Source of the DNA: Microcoleus sp. FACHB-672
GTDB taxonomy: Bacteria > Cyanobacteriota > Cyanobacteriia > Cyanobacteriales > Oscillatoriaceae
Direction: 5' to 3'
Length of the DNA stretch: 64,000 nucleotides
NCBI RefSeq assembly: GCF_014695725.1
Contig: NZ_JACJOU010000004.1
Coordinates: forward strand, 186,001 to 250,000
The translations under genes and the position numbers were made by a program. Shown piece after piece: positions 37,730 to 45,701 of the stretch. How positions within the stretch are numbered: position 1 is the first letter of the stretch; every line of letters starts with the position of its first letter. The notes beneath the pieces are model-generated. The model was given only the letters and a program-made list of their open reading frames with translations. It made no database searches and was not told the origin of the DNA.

Positions 37730-37961
37730 TGATAAGCTCCTCACACTGTGAAATTAACATCTGAGTCTAAATGACTTAAGCTTAACGCGACTTGACTGCT
37801 TTCCCGGTTTGTACAACCGGCAGCTAAGTAAGTGAAACGTTCAAAATTGTCGCTTGTAAAGTTTTGTAACAATCCAGAAAATTCCACAGGGTTAACCGAT
37901 ATAAGCGGTTTAAGCAATTTCATTCCTCATGAAATATAGCGTTCACCGGGAAGCTAGAGTT

Positions 37962-39431
37962 ATGAACCCGCAGCAAAGCCAACTTTATCAACAAATCCAA
38001 GCATTTTCCCTCGACGATCCCGATGCGAAATGGTGTTTTAGCCGGCGACTGGCAAAAGAAAAGGGCTGGAGTGATCGCTACACTCAGCGAGTGATTGCGG
38101 AATACAAAAAGTTTGCGTTTCTGGCAGTCGCGGCAGGACATCCGGTTTCCCCATCTGAGCCGGTTGATCAAGTCTGGCATTTGCATTTAACTTACACGCG
38201 ATCTTACTGGCAAGAATTTTGTTCTCAGATTTTACAAATGCCACTGCATCATGAACCTTCTCGCGGAGGTAGCAGTGAACGCGATAAATATAACGATTGG
38301 TACAAAAAAACACTTGCCAGTTACGAGCGTTTTTTTGGGTATGCACCCCCTAATGATATCTGGCTTCCCTTGCACATTCATGCCAGTCACAGCAAGCAAT
38401 TCGTGCAAGTCAACCGGCAACAGAATTGGATTGTGCCGAAGCCAAGTTTGAATTTCTTGCCCAAGATTGACTGGAATCAGCCGGCATTCTTGGCAGTGCT
38501 ATTTGTTTTAACCCTTGCTGTAAGCGGCTGTGCTTCTTCCCTACAATCAGGCACTTTCCCCAATCCGCTTAACCTAACGGGGCCAACCTTTTTGGCACTA
38601 TATGTATTTTTAGGGCTTGTCAGCATCATCTTGGGAGTCCTGCTGGGCCATTATCTGCGACTGCCGGGTGGCAACTCTACTGTTGAACTGGATTTGTATG
38701 AAACTGCCTACCTCAGCGCCGGACAACACCACACCGTGGATACGGCAATTGCCAGCCTTGTACAGCGCGAACAAGTGGAACCGCATACAGGCTGCCGGCT
38801 TGTCCTCACAACGACCTTAGAGCAGATTGATCACCCACTAGAACAAGCCGTTGCCGCAGCAATTGAAACCTATGGAAATATTTATCAGGTGAGAACAGCG
38901 ACTGCGGTTACTGCTGCGGTTGAGCAAATTCGTGAACGCTTACAGCAATTGCAACTGCTGCTGAATCAAAAGCAAGCTGATTTTGTTCGGATCTTTTCAG
39001 CAATTCCTATTTTCTCTTTGTTGGCACTCGGCGTTACCAAAATTTTCGTGGGACTCTATCACGGCAAGCCAATAGGGTTGCTGCTGTTTCTGTGCATTCT
39101 CACCGCCTTCATTGGGTCAATTTTTCTATCTTCATCGCCGTTTCGTAGCCGATTAGGCGATCACGTACTCGTGAATATTCAAAGTCATTTGGGACGTCCA
39201 ACAGTTGCTAGCACCACTGATCCGCAACTTCCAAGGGCGTTTGCTGTACTGGGCGCTGGCGTCTTAGCCGGCACCACACTTGTCGGTTTAAAAGAAGTTT
39301 TCATTCCTCCTGTGGCTGTTAGCAGTAGTGCCGGTGGCGGTGATGGTGGCGGCGGCGGCGGTGATGATGGTGGCTGTGGTGGTGGCGGTGGCTGCGGTGG
39401 CTGCGGCGGCTGCGGCGGCTGTGGCGGCTGA
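37962..39431 (+). CDS. Gly/Cys-tailed membrane protein (GRDP-like N-terminus, TIGR04222-type)
   Basis: About 489 residues. The N-terminal third has the glycine-rich-domain-protein-like pattern with FLAVAAGHPVSPSEPVDQVWHLH and a further SYWQEFC motif. The middle has TM segments (about 175-195, 205-230, 345-390) and the TIGR04222 hallmark YETAYLSAGQHHTVDTAIASL. The C-terminus is an extreme Gly/Cys tail with repeated GGCGGCGG (about residues 455-489). TIGR04222 proteins are membrane proteins of unknown function whose cysteine-rich tails may bind metal or be modified. The start is uncertain: ATG 37929 adds 11 residues, and neither start has a strong binding site. It heads the co-directional block that leads to the CHAT receptor. 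Confidence 0.75.
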   Translation: MNPQQSQLYQQIQAFSLDDPDAKWCFSRRLAKEKGWSDRYTQRVIAEYKKFAFLAVAAGHPVSPSEPVDQVWHLHLTYTRSYWQEFCSQILQMPLHHEPSRGGSSERDKYNDWYKKTLASYERFFGYAPPNDIWLPLHIHASHSKQFVQVNRQQNWIVPKPSLNFLPKIDWNQPAFLAVLFVLTLAVSGCASSLQSGTFPNPLNLTGPTFLALYVFLGLVSIILGVLLGHYLRLPGGNSTVELDLYETAYLSAGQHHTVDTAIASLVQREQVEPHTGCRLVLTTTLEQIDHPLEQAVAAAIETYGNIYQVRTATAVTAAVEQIRERLQQLQLLLNQKQADFVRIFSAIPIFSLLALGVTKIFVGLYHGKPIGLLLFLCILTAFIGSIFLSSSPFRSRLGDHVLVNIQSHLGRPTVASTTDPQLPRAFAVLGAGVLAGTTLVGLKEVFIPPVAVSSSAGGGDGGGGGGDDGGCGGGGGCGGCGGCGGCGG

Positions 39432-39559
39432 GACATGAGTAAGTATTCAGCGATTTGCCAGATGAAATGCAGTTGCTTGTATTGAAGGGTTGCCGGTTTA
39501 TGTAAAGTTTCGTAACCATCCAGATAAATGTATCAGATCAATCCCAATAAGCAGATTGC

Positions 39560-39579
39560 TGATGAGGTGAGGATATGAT
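39560..39579 (+). repeat. 20-nt translation-start leader, first of two identical copies
   Basis: TGATGAGGTGAGGATATGAT occurs here and, base for base, at 39916-39935. Each copy provides the ribosome binding site (GAGGTGAGG) and start codon of the following gene, so two neighbouring genes share a duplicated start region. Confidence 0.85.
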
Positions 39580-39907
39580 GAGTTCGTTCGCCGGCACTCC
39601 CGAATTTTTCGTTTTGCTTGCTCCCCAAACCGAAGATTTTTTGTGTTTGGTAGAGGGTACGGATGGGGCGAATCTGTGGGAATGGACTCCTTTCATCATG
39701 AGGGCAATACAGTTCAAAACCTTTCAGGAAGCGAGGGAGAAAGCCGAAGAGTTAGTTAGGGATCGCCAAGAAGGTTACGAGCTAGCCGTGTGTCATGTTT
39801 TAGTATTCGACGACGGAACACATTTCATGTGGGGAAAGCAGGAAATCATCAGAAAGGGAAAGGGCTTTTCAACAATTGAGATAAACGCAGTCAATAAACC
39901 CCTATAA
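39575..39907 (+). CDS. Unrecognised 110-residue cytosolic protein
   Basis: I do not recognise this family. The protein is soluble-looking with no signal or membrane segment. It has an alpha/beta pattern: FFVLLAPQTEDFLCLVEG, then FKTFQEAREKAEELVRD (amphipathic helix), then YELAVCHVLVFDDGTHFMWG. The start is well supported by GAGGTGAGG 5 bases before ATG 39575. It lies 23 bases before the membrane kinase gene and shares a duplicated start leader with it, so it is almost surely co-transcribed and may be a partner or substrate of that kinase (inference). Confidence 0.65.
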   Translation: MMSSFAGTPEFFVLLAPQTEDFLCLVEGTDGANLWEWTPFIMRAIQFKTFQEAREKAEELVRDRQEGYELAVCHVLVFDDGTHFMWGKQEIIRKGKGFSTIEINAVNKPL

Positions 39908-39930
39908 GCAAATAATGATGAGGTGAGGAT

Positions 39931-41391
39931 ATGATTGGGCAGGTGTTAGGCGAGCGATACCAAATTCAACAGCAACTCAGTAAAAAACCCGGACGAGAAA
40001 CCTTTCTGGCGTTTGATCTCGTAACGCAGCAACTCGTGGTTGTCAAAATTCTGAAATTTGGTGGGGACTTGGAATGGGATCACCTGAAGTTGTTTGAGCG
40101 AGAAGCGCAAATCTTACAAACGCTTTCGCAGCCGACAATTCCTAAATACCTCAATGGGTTTGATCTCGATTTACCCACTTGCAAAGGCTTTGTTTTAGTT
40201 CAAACTTACATCAAAGCTGTTTCTTTAGAAGCTCATTTAAAAGCTGGCCGTACCTTCAGCGAGTCAGAGGTGAAACAACTTGCTGAAAAGCTCTTAGAAA
40301 TCCTGATTTACTTACACGAACAAAAGCCACCGATTATTCACCGAGATATAAAACCGAGCAATATTCTGCTGAATAACCGTTCAGGTAATAATGTGGGGAA
40401 CGTGTATTTGGTTGATTTTGGTTCTGTACAGAATTTGGCAGCGGTGGAAGGAGGAACTTTTACAGTTGTGGGAACCTATGGTTATATGCCGGTGGAACAA
40501 TTTGGCGGGCGGGCAGTACCGGCTTCTGATTTGTATAGTCTGGGGGCAACGTTAATTTATTTAATGACAAGAGTGCATCCCTCTGATTTGCCGCAAAAAG
40601 ATTTTCGCATTCAATTTGAACAAGTAACGGAGCTAAGTTTAGAATTCAGTCGCTGGTTGAGAAAGATAGTAGAACCGAGTTTGGATAAACGTTTTACTTC
40701 GGCTCAGGTAGCTTTGCAAGCGTTGAAGCAACCCAATTTAATCGATTCTGCACCGTTGATTCCTAGAAAGCCGGCAGGTAGCAATCTATTACTTACCAAG
40801 AGTGCAGCCGAACTGCAAATTATTATTCCATCATTTCTACAAGTAGTATTATCTAATTTTTTTAAATTCAATTGGTCATTGCCGATTATTATCAAAAAAA
40901 TGTTTGTTGGTTTACATATTATCATCGAAAAAATAGTTTCATTTGCGGTTTTTATTGTTCTCTTTGGTTGGATGTTTATCGGTTCTTTGGTGGCAGGCAT
41001 TTATTTTTATCCTTTGATGGGCTGGGTAATACTAGGTTTTTTGTTCTTTATTGCTATTCATAAATTATTTTACAAAGTTCGGTTACAAATAAATCAAGAA
41101 AAAATTTACTTTATTCAAAAAATTCTTGGATTTCAAATAATGACTTCATCTCTGAGAAAAGATATTATCAAAATTGAGCGAATTTGTCCTCATGTAAAAA
41201 TTATAGAAAGCCCAGACAGTTTTTCATCTAATCTTGTTCGCAGCTCAATTGTGGTTTGGGCCGGCACCCAGAAATATGAACTGACAAATTTGACAGAGCC
41301 AGAACTAGATTGGTTGGCTTATGAGTTGAGTGAATGGTTAGAGTTACCTATCGAAATCCGCCAAGTACATACAGTAAAATCTACTAGCTAA
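39931..41391 (+). CDS. Membrane-anchored Ser/Thr protein kinase
   Basis: 486 residues. The kinase domain (about 8-270) has the ATP lysine Lys39 (VVVKIL), the catalytic loop HRDIKPSN (137-144, Asp139) and DFG Asp162, so it should be active, unlike the N-terminal domain of the large kinase at the left end of the window. Two hydrophobic helices follow at about 330-381. A cytosolic C-terminal domain (about 382-486) ends LTEPELDWLAYELSEWLELPI, a tail common in cyanobacterial kinases of this type. No extracellular sensor domain is visible. It precedes the sigma-like factor by 44 bases on the same strand, in what appears to be a signalling operon. Confidence 0.9.
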   Translation: MIGQVLGERYQIQQQLSKKPGRETFLAFDLVTQQLVVVKILKFGGDLEWDHLKLFEREAQILQTLSQPTIPKYLNGFDLDLPTCKGFVLVQTYIKAVSLEAHLKAGRTFSESEVKQLAEKLLEILIYLHEQKPPIIHRDIKPSNILLNNRSGNNVGNVYLVDFGSVQNLAAVEGGTFTVVGTYGYMPVEQFGGRAVPASDLYSLGATLIYLMTRVHPSDLPQKDFRIQFEQVTELSLEFSRWLRKIVEPSLDKRFTSAQVALQALKQPNLIDSAPLIPRKPAGSNLLLTKSAAELQIIIPSFLQVVLSNFFKFNWSLPIIIKKMFVGLHIIIEKIVSFAVFIVLFGWMFIGSLVAGIYFYPLMGWVILGFLFFIAIHKLFYKVRLQINQEKIYFIQKILGFQIMTSSLRKDIIKIERICPHVKIIESPDSFSSNLVRSSIVVWAGTQKYELTNLTEPELDWLAYELSEWLELPIEIRQVHTVKSTS

Positions 41392-41435
41392 ATGATGTTT
41401 TTGTTTGAAATCGGCCTTCTAATTTACCTTACTTT

Positions 41436-42062
41436 ATGTGTGAATTAAATGAACTCGTGTTAGAAACCCGTTGCTATCCGCATGGCAGCTTGGAGCGTCA
41501 AAAAAGGCTGAATCTTATTATTGCGAAGATGCAGCGCTCCACCCAAATTTGGCAAGCTCCAAATGTGCAAAGAGATGATTATCAGGAGGCACTGCAACAA
41601 ACTTGGCTATGGTTTTGTGAGAATCTTGATCGTTACGATCCTAGTAAAGCCGGGGTCATGACGTGGTTCAACAATAATTTAAGGTTTAAAATTCTCAACC
41701 GCTGGCAAGAAATCAAAAAAGAAAAAGCAAAATTTATCTATTTAGAACACCCTCTGAATAAAGATGAAGCACCCTCCATGTGGAATATTCCAGACAGCCG
41801 GCCTGAACCTTCAACTCTTATGGAAGATCTCCTAGAATGGTTGGAGAAAAACAAAAAAGAACTCAAACGAATTCATGTAAGGAACTGCCCAGATGTGAAC
41901 TGTTATATTTTAATCCGCTGTCGGTTGCCGCCAGAACCCATTCCTTGGGAAACGCTTTCTAAAGAACTTAAGGCTGCCGTTCCGACCTTGAGCGGTTTCT
42001 ATCAACGCGAGTGTATTACTCAGCTCCAAAGATTTGCCAAAGAAGGCGGCTACCATTCCTAA
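41436..42062 (+). CDS. Divergent sigma-70 family-like factor
   Basis: 208 residues. A region-2-like segment is DDYQEALQQTWLWFCENLDRYDPSKAGVMTWFNNNLRFKILNRW (about residues 48-91). A region-4-like helix-turn-helix is at the C-terminus (PWETLSKELKAAVPTLSGFYQRECITQLQRFAK, about 171-203). Such short sigma-like proteins are found in cyanobacteria next to DUF1822 and CHAT genes, as here. It could redirect RNA polymerase in response to the downstream receptor, or be regulated by the kinase upstream; both are inference. Region 4 is degenerate, so a non-sigma DNA-binding role is possible. ATG 41436 lacks a strong binding site. Confidence 0.7.
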   Translation: MCELNELVLETRCYPHGSLERQKRLNLIIAKMQRSTQIWQAPNVQRDDYQEALQQTWLWFCENLDRYDPSKAGVMTWFNNNLRFKILNRWQEIKKEKAKFIYLEHPLNKDEAPSMWNIPDSRPEPSTLMEDLLEWLEKNKKELKRIHVRNCPDVNCYILIRCRLPPEPIPWETLSKELKAAVPTLSGFYQRECITQLQRFAKEGGYHS

Positions 42063-42076
42063 CATCACAATTAATC

Positions 42077-43207
42077 ATGAAAGACTTAACTTCCTTTAGT
42101 ACCTTTAGCATTCCTCTAGCTCCCAGAGATCGCTACACTGCCGAACAATTTGCGCGGGAGCAACCAACTGCCGAAAAAGCCACTCAGGTTTATTGCAATA
42201 CTTTGGCAGTTTTGGTCGTCCATTACTATTTGCGAATGCTCGATATTTCTGTCGATCTCAAAACGAGTTATAGCTGGAACGCCGGCTGTCGTCTTGGGGC
42301 AGATATTGCTGATTTATATTTACCCGGAAAAGGGCGGCTAGAATGTCGCCCCATCCCTCTAGGAGAAGCAACCTGTGCCATTCCCCCAGAAGTTTGGGCA
42401 GATCGACTGGGTTACATCCTTGTTGAAATCAATGAAAGTTGTGAAGTAGGAACGATCTTAGGATTTGTTCAACTTGCCGCACCCACCATTTTCCGCTCAC
42501 AATTACAACCACTTGACGCATTACTAGAAATATTGCACTCTACACCGACACTGGTTCCTTCACTCGGATTTATCCGCTTAAATCAATGGTTACATCAAGT
42601 ATTCGATCCAGGTTGGCAGGGTTTTGAAGAATTAGTTTATCAGCAGCAAGCCTGGGCATTCCGCACGCGACTGGCTAAGTCTGTCCGCACGCGACAGGCT
42701 GAGTCTGTGAGTGTTTGGCAACCAATTGAACAGTTGTATTCTAGTCAAGAGACGGCTATTCTGCAAGATGAGCATTTTGCCCCCAGCGATGCACTGAGTT
42801 ATTTAATTCAGAGGACTGAAGACGAAGAAGTGCGCTGGAAAGCGGCTGAACTCTTGTGGGATCTTGCTCCGGAAAACCCGCTAGCCGGCATTCGACGCGT
42901 CACTGACTTGAGAAGCCAATTAGCCGGTTATGCCGGCGCTTTAATGGTGGCAATTTTGCCTAAGGCTGATCAAACTTTCGCATTGTTATTGCGAGTCTAT
43001 CCGCTGCGCTATCAATCCTATTTGCCAGCCGGTTTACAACTGGAAGTAAGCGGACAGGATGAATTGGGTAATCCAGTGAAAGAAAATGTTATAGCAAGAG
43101 AAAGTGATGACTACATTCAGCTAAAGTTAATTGCAGAACCGGGAGATCGGTTCAGTGTTGCCCTCAAGTTGGACAATGCCCGCTTTGAAGAACACTTTAT
43201 GGTCTAA
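42077..43207 (+). CDS. DUF1822 family protein
   Basis: About 376 residues from ATG 42077; the frame is open further upstream into the sigma-like gene, but the conserved start is MKDLTSFSTFSIPLAPRDR. The N-terminal half has the DUF1822 pattern (NTLAVLVVHYYLRMLDISVDL, AGCRLGADIADLYLPGKGRLECRPI, DRLGYILVEINESCEVGTILGFV). The C-terminal part is a beta-rich region. It contains a local 8-residue duplication, RLAKSVRT/RQAESVSV. No function is known, but the family travels with sigma-like factors and CHAT proteins in cyanobacteria. Gaps of 14 and 19 bases to its neighbours argue for one transcript. Confidence 0.8.
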   Translation: MKDLTSFSTFSIPLAPRDRYTAEQFAREQPTAEKATQVYCNTLAVLVVHYYLRMLDISVDLKTSYSWNAGCRLGADIADLYLPGKGRLECRPIPLGEATCAIPPEVWADRLGYILVEINESCEVGTILGFVQLAAPTIFRSQLQPLDALLEILHSTPTLVPSLGFIRLNQWLHQVFDPGWQGFEELVYQQQAWAFRTRLAKSVRTRQAESVSVWQPIEQLYSSQETAILQDEHFAPSDALSYLIQRTEDEEVRWKAAELLWDLAPENPLAGIRRVTDLRSQLAGYAGALMVAILPKADQTFALLLRVYPLRYQSYLPAGLQLEVSGQDELGNPVKENVIARESDDYIQLKLIAEPGDRFSVALKLDNARFEEHFMV

Positions 43208-43226
43208 CGCCAAGCGCGAATAAGCG

Positions 43227-45701
43227 ATGGGAAAGCAGATTATCTTCACAATTGGTAATGGCAGCTTTGATCAGGGATTTCCCGTAGAGTTTCAGATTCG
43301 AGAAGCTGGACAAACTGCATTTACGATTACGGGACAGCTACCTCCTGCTGCGGAAATTCTGCAACGCTATGATCATTGGCAACAGGCTTATTGCTCTTTA
43401 GAGAAAGTGCGGCATAAATTGCGGCGCATCAAGATTCCTTCTAACCAAACAAAAAACGTTTCCAATTCCAAGGATTGTAGTAAATTAGCAGAAGATCTTG
43501 AAACCACTTTAAAACAGTGGTTTGATTGCTTACCTCTGCAACAGTTTTCCGAGCCGGCTCAGATTATTCTGCAAACTCAAGATCCTGCGTTGCGCCGGCT
43601 TCCCTGGCATCTGTGGAATTTAGTCGAGCATCGCCCTGATATCGAGCTATGCGTTAATTTCCAGAATCTTCCCAACACTCAGCCGGTGTGGAAGCGACTG
43701 CCAAACCCGGTGCGAATTTTGGCAGTTTTGGGCAGTGATGAAGGCATTGATACTCAAGCAGATTTGCAAGTTTTGCAGCAGCTACCGGCTGCTAAGGTAA
43801 CGCAATTACAAATGCCGCACCGTAGCCAACTGATTGAGACACTGCTCAAACAACATTGGGATATCCTGTTTTTTGCCGGCCATAGTTTTAGCAATACTGA
43901 AGGAAAAGGGGGGCAAATTTATCTCAATGAAACAGAATGTTTGTCTCTCAATGATTTGCGACTCGCCTTACACGCAGCCGTGCAAAAAGGCTTAATGCTG
44001 GCAATTTTTAATTCCTGTGATGGCTTAGGACTCGCGCAAAATGCCGCAGACTTACAAATTCCCCATGTTATCGTCATGCGGGAACCTGTTTCAGATCCGG
44101 TGGCTCATGCTTTTTTGCGCTACTTTTTTGAAGCATTTGCTCAAGGGCAATCTTTGTATCGTTCAGTATGGCAAGCGCGGGCAAAACTTCAGGGAATGGA
44201 AGACAAATTTCCGGGGGCTTCTTGGCTGCCGGTATTATGTCCAAATCCAACAAAACCGCTGCCCGTTTGGTGTAAACCGCGCTCTCCCTATCGTCAACTG
44301 ACTTTGTTAATCGGCATTTTAACAATTCCCCTTGCTTTATTTGCCGGTTGGAAAGTTTATGAATGGAATGCTTTGCAACGTCGGATCAGTTTAGGCGAAA
44401 AAATTTTAATCAAATCTGTTAAAACACCAGAGAAGGAAGCCGGTGTAAAAGCTTTTGCAGCTAAGAATTTTCCCAAGGCAATTTCCCACTTCCAAACCTC
44501 CTTAAAAATCCATCAAAATGATCCGGAAACGCGGATTTATCTGAATAACGCCAAAGCCGGCTTGCATCCTGCCATAACAATTGGTGCGGCTGTCCCCATC
44601 GGCACAAATTCCAATGTTGCCCAGGAAATTTTGCGTGGTATGGCACAGGTACAGGAAGCGGTGAATCGTGCCGGCGGCATCAACGGGAAGTTTTTAAAAG
44701 TCCAAATTGCCGATGACAATAATAATCCCAACCTCGCCAAACGCCTTGCTGAAGTGTTTGTGGAAGACAGCAACATCCTAGCCGTCATTGGACATAATGC
44801 CAGCGATGCTTCTGCTGCCGGTGGTGCCGTCTATCAGGGCAAGTTGGTGATGATTACACCCACCAGTTTTTCTAAAGGCTTGGTTGAACTCGGAGGGCGT
44901 GCTAACGATAACTTTTTGTTTCGTACAGTTCCCAGCCTGAGCTCAGCAGCCAATAAGCTGGCTCGCTACGCTATCAAAACGGCGCAGAAAACCCGTATTG
45001 CCATGTGTTTTGATATTGATTCTGTCGATAATCAATCTTTTCGCTATGAATTTGCGGCGGTAATGGATAGCGCTATCCGAGAAGATGGGGGTACGCTCAT
45101 CGATATTCGCTGCAATTTTGGTGCACCGGGCTTTAATGCCGAGGTGGCGATCTCCCGCGCTAAAAATCATGGGGCTGATGCCATGCTGTTGTCTCCCCAT
45201 GTTGATCGCCTCTCCAACGCGTTGGACATTGCTAAGGCGAATCGGGGACAATTAGCTTTATTTAGTAGCCCAACATTGCACACGGCAAAAACACTAGAAG
45301 GACAAGCCGATGTTAATAATTTGGTGATTCCTGTTTTCTCGCATCCAGCAGCGATGTCTGCCAATCATCCATTTATCGCAGGTGCTAAAAACTTGTGGGG
45401 CAGTTTAGAAACCCTCACTTGGCGAACTCCCAGCGCTTACGACGCCACGCAAGCCGTTGTAGCGGCAGTAAAGCAAAGCGATGGTTCTCGACAACAGTTG
45501 CAGCGAGTGTTATCAAGTCCGGGGTTTTCAGTTCCGGGTGCTTTCGATGAAGTGCAGTTTCACCAGTGGGGCGATCGTGTTGGGGGAAATCCCGTCTTGG
45601 TTCAAGTTCAACCCAATCGTTCTGCCGGCAAGTATGAATTCAAATTAATTGAAGGCGTTGAACAATCTGTCAGTTTAAAGAAGACGAAGTTAATTCCTTA
45701 G
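43227..45701 (+). CDS. CHAT caspase-like domain fused via one helix to a type I periplasmic ligand-binding domain
   Basis: 824 residues with an unusual layout. Residues about 75-345 form a CHAT domain (caspase-like, clan CD) with the dyad His219 (FFAGHS) and Cys264 (IFNSCDG). One transmembrane helix spans about 358-378 (LTLLIGILTIPLALFAGWKVYEW). A short TPR-like hairpin follows (about 405-445, FPKAISHFQTSLKIHQNDPETRIYLNNA). Residues about 449-815 match type I periplasmic-binding proteins of branched-chain amino-acid systems (LivK/Peripla_BP_6), with the hallmarks GIAQVQEAVN-like, AGGINGKFLKVQIADD, VIGHNASDASAAGG and MITPTSF. The topology implies a cytosolic protease domain and an extracytoplasmic sensor, that is, a receptor-protease. 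The ligand and protease substrates are unknown. Confidence 0.88.
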   Translation: MGKQIIFTIGNGSFDQGFPVEFQIREAGQTAFTITGQLPPAAEILQRYDHWQQAYCSLEKVRHKLRRIKIPSNQTKNVSNSKDCSKLAEDLETTLKQWFDCLPLQQFSEPAQIILQTQDPALRRLPWHLWNLVEHRPDIELCVNFQNLPNTQPVWKRLPNPVRILAVLGSDEGIDTQADLQVLQQLPAAKVTQLQMPHRSQLIETLLKQHWDILFFAGHSFSNTEGKGGQIYLNETECLSLNDLRLALHAAVQKGLMLAIFNSCDGLGLAQNAADLQIPHVIVMREPVSDPVAHAFLRYFFEAFAQGQSLYRSVWQARAKLQGMEDKFPGASWLPVLCPNPTKPLPVWCKPRSPYRQLTLLIGILTIPLALFAGWKVYEWNALQRRISLGEKILIKSVKTPEKEAGVKAFAAKNFPKAISHFQTSLKIHQNDPETRIYLNNAKAGLHPAITIGAAVPIGTNSNVAQEILRGMAQVQEAVNRAGGINGKFLKVQIADDNNNPNLAKRLAEVFVEDSNILAVIGHNASDASAAGGAVYQGKLVMITPTSFSKGLVELGGRANDNFLFRTVPSLSSAANKLARYAIKTAQKTRIAMCFDIDSVDNQSFRYEFAAVMDSAIREDGGTLIDIRCNFGAPGFNAEVAISRAKNHGADAMLLSPHVDRLSNALDIAKANRGQLALFSSPTLHTAKTLEGQADVNNLVIPVFSHPAAMSANHPFIAGAKNLWGSLETLTWRTPSAYDATQAVVAAVKQSDGSRQQLQRVLSSPGFSVPGAFDEVQFHQWGDRVGGNPVLVQVQPNRSAGKYEFKLIEGVEQSVSLKKTKLIP

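Follow-up and report, generated by a model that had tools for sequence, protein, structure and literature searches.

We describe here six genes in a 64,000-nucleotide stretch of Microcoleus sp. FACHB-672 (NCBI RefSeq assembly GCF_014695725.1, contig NZ_JACJOU010000004.1, positions 186,001 to 250,000 of the forward strand; genome size, 6.37 Mb), hereafter called the window, and among them mainly a divergent sigma-like gene, a DUF1822 gene, and a gene that fuses a CHAT protease to a ligand-binding domain. An original prediction, made from the sequence letters, had read all six as one receptor-protease signaling operon. A check of open reading frames (ORFs) finds the six at the positions it had given and all on the plus strand, together with the short gaps that it had noted between the last five, the intergenic distances from the first gene to the sixth being 143, 23, 44, 14, and 19 bp:

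37962-39431, plus strand: gene 1, TIGR04222 membrane protein (NCBIfam TIGR04222, E = 8.3e-41)
39575-39907, plus strand: orphan gene of 110 amino acids (aa), without a family match
39931-41391, plus strand: Ser/Thr kinase with C-terminal hydrophobic segments (Pfam Pkinase, E = 1.3e-30)
41436-42062, plus strand: divergent sigma-like gene, 208 aa (weak match to NCBIfam TIGR02989, E = 0.0018)
42077-43207, plus strand: DUF1822 gene, 376 aa, predicted anti-sigma protein (Pfam PF08852, full model, E = 5.7e-75)
43227-45701, plus strand: CHAT protease-receptor, 824 aa (Pfam CHAT and Peripla_BP_6; hydropathy)

The six-gene stretch is alignable end to end in two other genomes of the genus (DNA identity, 94% and 90%) in a family search of 8 genomes, and the six genes are co-linear in all three genus genomes. 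Across these genomes all six are under purifying selection, with dN/dS ratios of 0.09 to 0.34: 0.09 to 0.14 for the sigma-like, DUF1822, and CHAT genes, 0.15 to 0.19 for the 110-aa gene, 0.25 to 0.30 for the kinase, and 0.34 for the TIGR04222 gene. This conservation and the end-to-end alignment indicate that the arrangement is more than chance. Gene 1 is set apart from the next gene by its 143 bp and has an alternative upstream ATG at 37929, in an open frame; a promoter and terminator scan of the stretch gave hits at chance level only. The closest named relative found is Microcoleus vaginatus WJT46-NPBG5 (locus L001), with 89% identity in the best DUF1822 segment.

The neighborhood was followed through 140 fetched stretches together with the window, L001, and a further locus, L002, which together contain 147 DUF1822 genes, distributed over 58 genomes; the stretches are the best-scoring part of a Pfam listing from a 194-genome sample of the phylum, not a random draw, and the window and L001, close kin, are both counted. 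The next gene upstream of DUF1822 matches a sigma profile in 130 of the 147 cases, with a median gap of 23 bp and in 57 of the 58 genomes, and a sigma-profile gene lies within 5 kb in 135. Downstream, with 6 stretches stopping short of a next gene, that gene encodes a CHAT protein of the subfamily seen here in 77 of 141 cases; when TPR-CHAT proteins and C14 peptidases are included, the count rises to 87. The complete triple of sigma, DUF1822, and CHAT is found for 64/147 genes and in 43/58 genomes. Counted from the protease, 56 of the best 105 listed CHAT places of the subfamily have a listed DUF1822 within 2.5 kb upstream. The counts in both directions point to sigma and DUF1822 as close partners with the protease as a frequent third. 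The recurrence of the three in cyanobacteria, in fixed order, which the original prediction had put forward, is borne out by these numbers, and the widely conserved unit is sigma-DUF1822-CHAT, smaller than the six genes. DUF1822 and CHAT distances are correlated (partial r, 0.75 and 0.60). Within single genomes they also covary between operons (41 pairs, 21 genomes), and a shuffle of the DUF1822/CHAT partners reaches the observed value in 6/2000 cases.

In the sigma-like protein of the window, the N-terminal part is helical and includes a region-2-like stretch (about residues 45 to 100), and a helix-turn-helix lies at the C terminus (about residues 156 to 203). The protein has no Pfam match, and its NCBIfam match is the weak one given above, so the original wording of a divergent "sigma-like" factor is apt and the name sigma factor is one that we infer. 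Foldseek with its AlphaFold2 (AF2) model returns sigma factors among the top rows, including the sigmaE-RseA, AlgU-MucA, and RpoE-NepR complexes, none of them at E ≤ 0.001. Neighbors were called with two sigma profiles, for a short family (mostly 210 to 260 aa) and a long family (mostly 385 to 550 aa), both derived from the same loci in which the sigma neighbors were counted. Two of 17 short-family members match Sigma70_r4_2; of four long-family members scanned, three match Sigma70_r4 and the fourth Sigma70_r4_2 below the cut-off; and a weak profile-profile match links the two families (P = 0.0017, probability 15%). The short family has 76 listed places, or 75 after one split gene is counted once, of which 59 have a listed DUF1822 place at most 1 kb downstream, 4 have one at 1 to 7 kb, and 12 have none.

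DUF1822 itself was found in 130 of the 194 genomes of the phylum sample, in 122 of them above the family cut-off, and in none of 14 control genomes. An AF2 model of the window protein, made from 3 sequences and of low confidence (pLDDT, 55.9), suggests an N-terminal domain followed by two further parts:

42782 to 42865, plus strand: helical HEAT-like insertion, residues 236-263 (alignment; helices in the low-confidence AF2 model)
42890 to 43204, plus strand: C-terminal beta-sandwich, residues 272-376 (AF2 blocks with pLDDT 66-86)

The label "HEAT-like" is a reading from the sequence letters, and the best 50 Foldseek rows obtained with the model are mostly Ig-like domains. Kinship of DUF1822 with Csx30 was considered and gave no hit, with 0 PDB sequences at E ≤ 1 and no Csx30 in those 50 rows of the low-confidence model. 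An association of the HEAT-like insertion with the binding-domain type of receptor (Fisher p = 1.3e-5; raw table, 9/9/2/57) was dropped, because the CHAT tree holds too few independent changes. DUF1822 relatives occur on 17 of 72,556 plasmid records (H1 to H17), 7 of the 17 being typed as conjugative.

The CHAT protein comprises, in order, an N-terminal constant domain, the CHAT domain, one transmembrane (TM) segment, a TPR-like hairpin, and a type I periplasmic binding domain:

43227 to 43511, plus strand: N-terminal constant domain, residues 1-95 (aligned across 81 CHAT rows)
43509 to 44192, plus strand: CHAT caspase-like domain, residues 95-322 (Pfam PF12770, E = 1.5e-13)
43881 to 43883, plus strand: catalytic His219 codon (His in 81/81 aligned rows)
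44016 to 44018, plus strand: catalytic Cys264 codon (Cys in 80/81 aligned rows)
44295 to 44351, plus strand: single TM segment, residues 357-375, separating CHAT from the binding domain (hydropathy)
44574 to 45611, plus strand: type I periplasmic binding domain, residues 450-795, predicted extracytoplasmic sensor (Pfam Peripla_BP_6, E = 1.1e-24)

The constant domain sits where the published EACC2 domain, described as a novel alpha+beta domain, does and is likened to it by position, the name being taken from PMC8195603. Cys264, singled out in the original prediction, is present, and the full His/Cys dyad is kept in 80 of the 81 rows, the exception being a gap in a fragment. In 73 of 87 related proteins, CHAT is followed by a TM-like segment. 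The TPR-like hairpin is called by likeness to L096, where Pfam has TPR ahead of the binding domain. As to the originally proposed fusion of CHAT to an extracytoplasmic ligand-binding domain, the binding domain is on the far side of the single TM segment as described, and its location outside the cytoplasm is predicted. Most of its PDB relatives are amino-acid binding proteins, with 4mlc as the best match (E = 2e-11), and the GHxxS and PTS stretches, which belong to the ligand site of the amino-acid binding protein family, are conserved in 70% or more of an alignment of 18 binding-domain rows, in which the window is counted twice. A CHAT tree of 73 rows requires at least 6 changes of the binding-domain state and at least 6 of the sigma type, and these repeated changes argue for a constant core with exchangeable sensors. 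A second cassette in the same genome (L046, C25:46500-66400) consists of a 314-aa sigma-like gene, DUF1822, an EACC2-type CHAT gene, and then a DUF928 gene, its CHAT protein carrying a Guanylate_cyc-like stretch and CHASE2 in place of the binding domain.

Several further features of the CHAT genes and their surroundings were observed. DUF928 genes repeatedly stand right after the CHAT gene (L046, L066, L074-L076, L083, and others), with 38 DUF928-profile genes in 36 of the 143 loci. Proteins with TM, TPR, and binding domain, encoded as separate genes without CHAT (L096:9861-11219, L102:3281-4630, and L103:3204-4553), adjoin sigma-DUF1822-CHAT cassettes that carry this binding domain as well, and each is preceded by a gene of 236 to 239 aa, which is PspA_IM30-like in L102. 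The source genome (6.4 Mb) holds 31 CHAT places, four of them within open frames of 1900 to 3600 aa. Decayed cassettes are also seen, with DUF1822 split over two frames in L069 and a broken CHAT in L090.

The sigma-DUF1822 pairing is present in two classes of the phylum. In f29, a family of the other class, we examined 27 loci (L198-L224), a set that leaves out 1 of the 21 listed f29 places and two of genome G016. Here the N-terminal domain of DUF1822 forms the start of a larger protein, in most cases of 500 to 1300 aa, and a TM segment is found in all 24 proteins of more than 480 aa with downstream sequence, one of which has two. A sigma-like gene stands directly after DUF1822, the opposite order to that of the cassette, in 22 of the 25 loci that continue (L214, L220, and L224 have none there). 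Of these genes, 21 encode 182 to 200 aa, and that of L223, at 476 aa, matches the f29 profile only; all four tested f29 sigma-like proteins match Pfam Sigma70_r4 above the cut-off. The DUF1822 protein of L201 ends in a TonB-type domain, and in this locus, the one scanned further, the next gene after the sigma-like gene encodes a zinc-ribbon AAA/STAND-like ATPase. CHAT and C14 profiles found no match in the first seven f29 loci. Membrane anti-sigma factors consist of a cytoplasmic sigma-partner domain, a TM stalk, and an outside domain, and it is because the f29 layout resembles such a factor that we call DUF1822 an anti-sigma candidate.

Our preferred reading, which we hold tentatively and place just short of probable, is that a one-component receptor-protease controls a sigma factor via DUF1822 as the anti-sigma protein. 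A small-molecule ligand, probably amino-acid-like, would bind the type I binding domain, which the topology that we infer puts outside the cytoplasm, and the signal would pass inward along the one TM helix to activate the cytoplasmic CHAT cysteine protease (H219/C264). Active CHAT would then cut DUF1822, the putative anti-sigma protein holding the divergent sigma factor, and the freed sigma would direct RNA polymerase to its target genes, perhaps its own operon among them. The original prediction had left open whether DUF1822 or the sigma-like factor is cut, and by analogy DUF1822 fits best as the regulator that would be cleaved. The precedents are the CHAT protease Csx29, which cuts Csx30, an inhibitor of CASP-sigma (PMC10028731); CalpL, which cuts the anti-sigma CalpT and so frees CalpS (PMC12751052); and the cyanobacterial HetF, which cuts PatU3, an inhibitor of HetZ (PMC12288457). 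All three count in favor of CHAT cutting DUF1822 to free sigma. So do the conserved gene order, the intact dyad, the TM and sensor anatomy, the covariation of DUF1822 and CHAT, and the pairing of sigma with DUF1822 in both classes. Also tentative, and slightly further from probable, is the wider proposal that DUF1822 is a phylum-wide anti-sigma family, whose N-terminal domain would hold the matching divergent sigma; the f29 form would be membrane-anchored and the cyanobacterial form a soluble substrate of exchangeable caspase-superfamily proteases with exchangeable sensors, in the window a binding-protein receptor.

Several observations weigh against this preferred reading. Seventeen of the 147 DUF1822 genes are without a sigma gene directly upstream and 12 have none within 5 kb, while 49 of the best 105 listed CHAT places are without a listed DUF1822 in the 2.5 kb upstream. 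The sigma distance correlation is weak (partial r, 0.09 and 0.26), with sigma distances near saturation, and joint inheritance of the operon alone could produce the correlation between DUF1822 and CHAT distances. The identity of the putative sigma factor is supported by weak profile and fold matches, with profiles drawn from the same loci. DUF1822 has no match among PDB sequences at E ≤ 1, and neither an anti-sigma protein nor Csx30 is among the best 50 Foldseek rows of its low-confidence model. Finally, for 54 of 141 DUF1822 genes the next gene belongs to none of the three protease types, so a sigma-DUF1822 pair need not have this protease. These same 54 genes favor a scheme in which DUF1822 is a sigma co-activator or second sensor and CHAT, having other substrates, shares the operon only; we consider it improbable, given that the order is conserved and that DUF1822 and CHAT track each other closely within genomes. 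Alternatively, the sigma factor might be the CHAT substrate, activated or destroyed by the cut, and DUF1822 an adaptor; a review, in the part available, gives proteolysis as a proposed control of ECF54 and places CHAT proteins in ECF54 neighborhoods (PMC8999054). The pairing of sigma with DUF1822 in f29, where the first seven loci gave no CHAT profile match, and the tracking of CHAT distances by DUF1822, not sigma, make this more doubtful still. The published view of the EACC2 proteins, set out in section 9 of Kaur et al. 2021 (PMC8195603), is that of a conflict or cell-death system, in which the variable C-terminal part serves as threat sensor, self-cleavage turns on the caspase domain, and sigma drives a defense or death response. 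It would suit both the variation of the C-terminal parts (CHASE2 in the paralogue of the same genome; the 6 binding-domain state changes on the 73-row tree) and the 31 CHAT places of the source genome. We nevertheless rate it as rather unlikely here: a Pfam scan of the four nearest flanking genes (encoding a DHQ synthase, a trypsin/PDZ protease, a radical SAM protein, and a DUF362 protein) shows no recognizable defense genes among those four, PADLOC matches none of the six genes except the kinase, by generic kinase models, and a ligand-binding ectodomain equally suits nutrient or signal sensing.

The upstream genes bear on how far the pathway extends. The kinase has the intact HRD and DFG motifs of the original prediction, at residues 137 and 162, and a hydrophobic stretch at 335 to 383; its 44-bp spacing from the sigma-like gene is found only in the window and L001 among 63 loci. 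The 110-aa gene, without a family match in Pfam, NCBIfam, or PADLOC scans, is present in 3 of the 8 family genomes, all of one genus, and in 2 of the 143 loci (the window and L001), and its protein is local, at genus level. Identical runs of 20 bases, including the ribosome-binding site and start, precede this gene (39560-39579) and the kinase (39916-39935), as if by duplication of a leader. The TIGR04222 domain occurs in 11 of the 194 genomes, and among the DUF1822 places listed only the window copy adjoins one, which together with the narrow range of the 110-aa gene speaks against the six genes as a fixed system. Gene 1 as a mere neighbor was a view that we withdrew, since its N-terminal domain (residues 1-200) recurs in L082 (4073-4906, 277 aa, E = 8e-63, its tail likewise Gly/Cys-rich), in L095 (14227-14520, 97 aa, E = 6e-20), where a kinase gene adjoins, and weakly in L171 (E = 1e-5). 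Within 8 kb upstream and on the same strand, this domain is found in 4 of 11 binding-domain-CHAT cassettes versus 1 of 136 others, and the kinase profile likewise in 4 of 11 (window, L001, L095, and L166) versus 1 of 136 (L121); with L001 removed, each count is 3/10 versus 1/136 (Fisher p = 9e-4, kinship uncorrected, post hoc). This enrichment makes the kinase and gene 1 possible accessories of the binding-domain cassette. The larger scheme of the original prediction would extend our preferred reading by taking both into the pathway, with phosphorylation as a second input. It gains from the same counts, from the presence of both genes in L095, from the co-linearity of all six genes in 3/3 genus genomes, and from the selection on the kinase. 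Against it, 7 of the 11 binding-domain cassettes lack the kinase and 7 lack the gene 1 domain, the window and L001 are close kin, the kinase lies 5.3 kb from DUF1822 in L095 and 1.8 kb in L166, the TIGR04222 domain stands by a listed DUF1822 place in only 1 of its 11 genomes, and the 110-aa gene is confined to the genus; we give this scheme little credence.

If the preferred reading is true, DUF1822, carried above the cut-off by 122 of the 194 sampled genomes of the phylum, would gain a role, and what has been predicted as a conflict system would become a signaling pathway of ligand, one TM helix, caspase-like protease, anti-sigma, and sigma. Under the wider proposal of a phylum-wide anti-sigma family, this would be a receptor-caspase-anti-sigma pathway with receptor and protease in one membrane protein.

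Among known systems, the EACC2-caspase proteins of Kaur et al. 2021 have variable C termini, and their TRADD-N-independent neighborhoods mostly hold an extracytoplasmic function sigma factor and DUF1822, for which caspase self-activation and a sigma-driven response are proposed (PMC8195603). That description covers the locus and the neighborhood is not new, so the association that the original prediction had considered to be without an assigned function has a functional proposal in print. The likeness lies in a constant N-terminal domain, matched by position, joined to a caspase-type domain, the variable C terminus, and the adjoining DUF1822 and putative sigma genes; in the window, the CHAT protein has the His/Cys dyad and a variable C-terminal domain, DUF1822 is beside it, and the sigma-like gene ends 14 bp upstream of DUF1822. 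A periplasmic-binding-protein ectodomain, which the window protein is predicted to have, is not named in the main text, which calls DUF1822 a TPR protein and in section 9 gives it no anti-sigma role (PMC8195603). The literature on DUF1822, as far as its accessible text goes, likewise states no anti-sigma role, and our literature search found no paper joining PCaspase, sigma, and CHAT. What is added here is the binding-protein sensor form and the evidence that places DUF1822 with sigma. The metacaspase and ANF-receptor fusion of Nostoc punctiforme resembles the window protein in that a caspase-type protease is joined to a type I ligand-binding domain; it is named a metacaspase, not CHAT, and a sigma or DUF1822 context is not mentioned in the available part of the report (PMC2853523). 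Type III-E CASP shares a CHAT protease, a sigma factor, and a third protein, which there inhibits sigma and is cut; it is switched on by guide RNA together with target RNA rather than through a receptor, and no sequence link of DUF1822 to a PDB chain was found. HetF is a CHAT protein too, and the HetF model matches the window CHAT protein weakly, over residues 183 to 273 only (E = 1.5e-7; 30 bits versus a cut-off of 1200). The HetF-PatU3-HetZ system of Anabaena, for which the accessible text names no sigma factor, is like the proposed pathway in having a cyanobacterial protease that cuts the inhibitor of a transcription regulator (PMC12288457). If our preferred reading is true, HetF-PatU3, Csx29-Csx30, and CalpL-CalpT would gain a common chromosomal counterpart.

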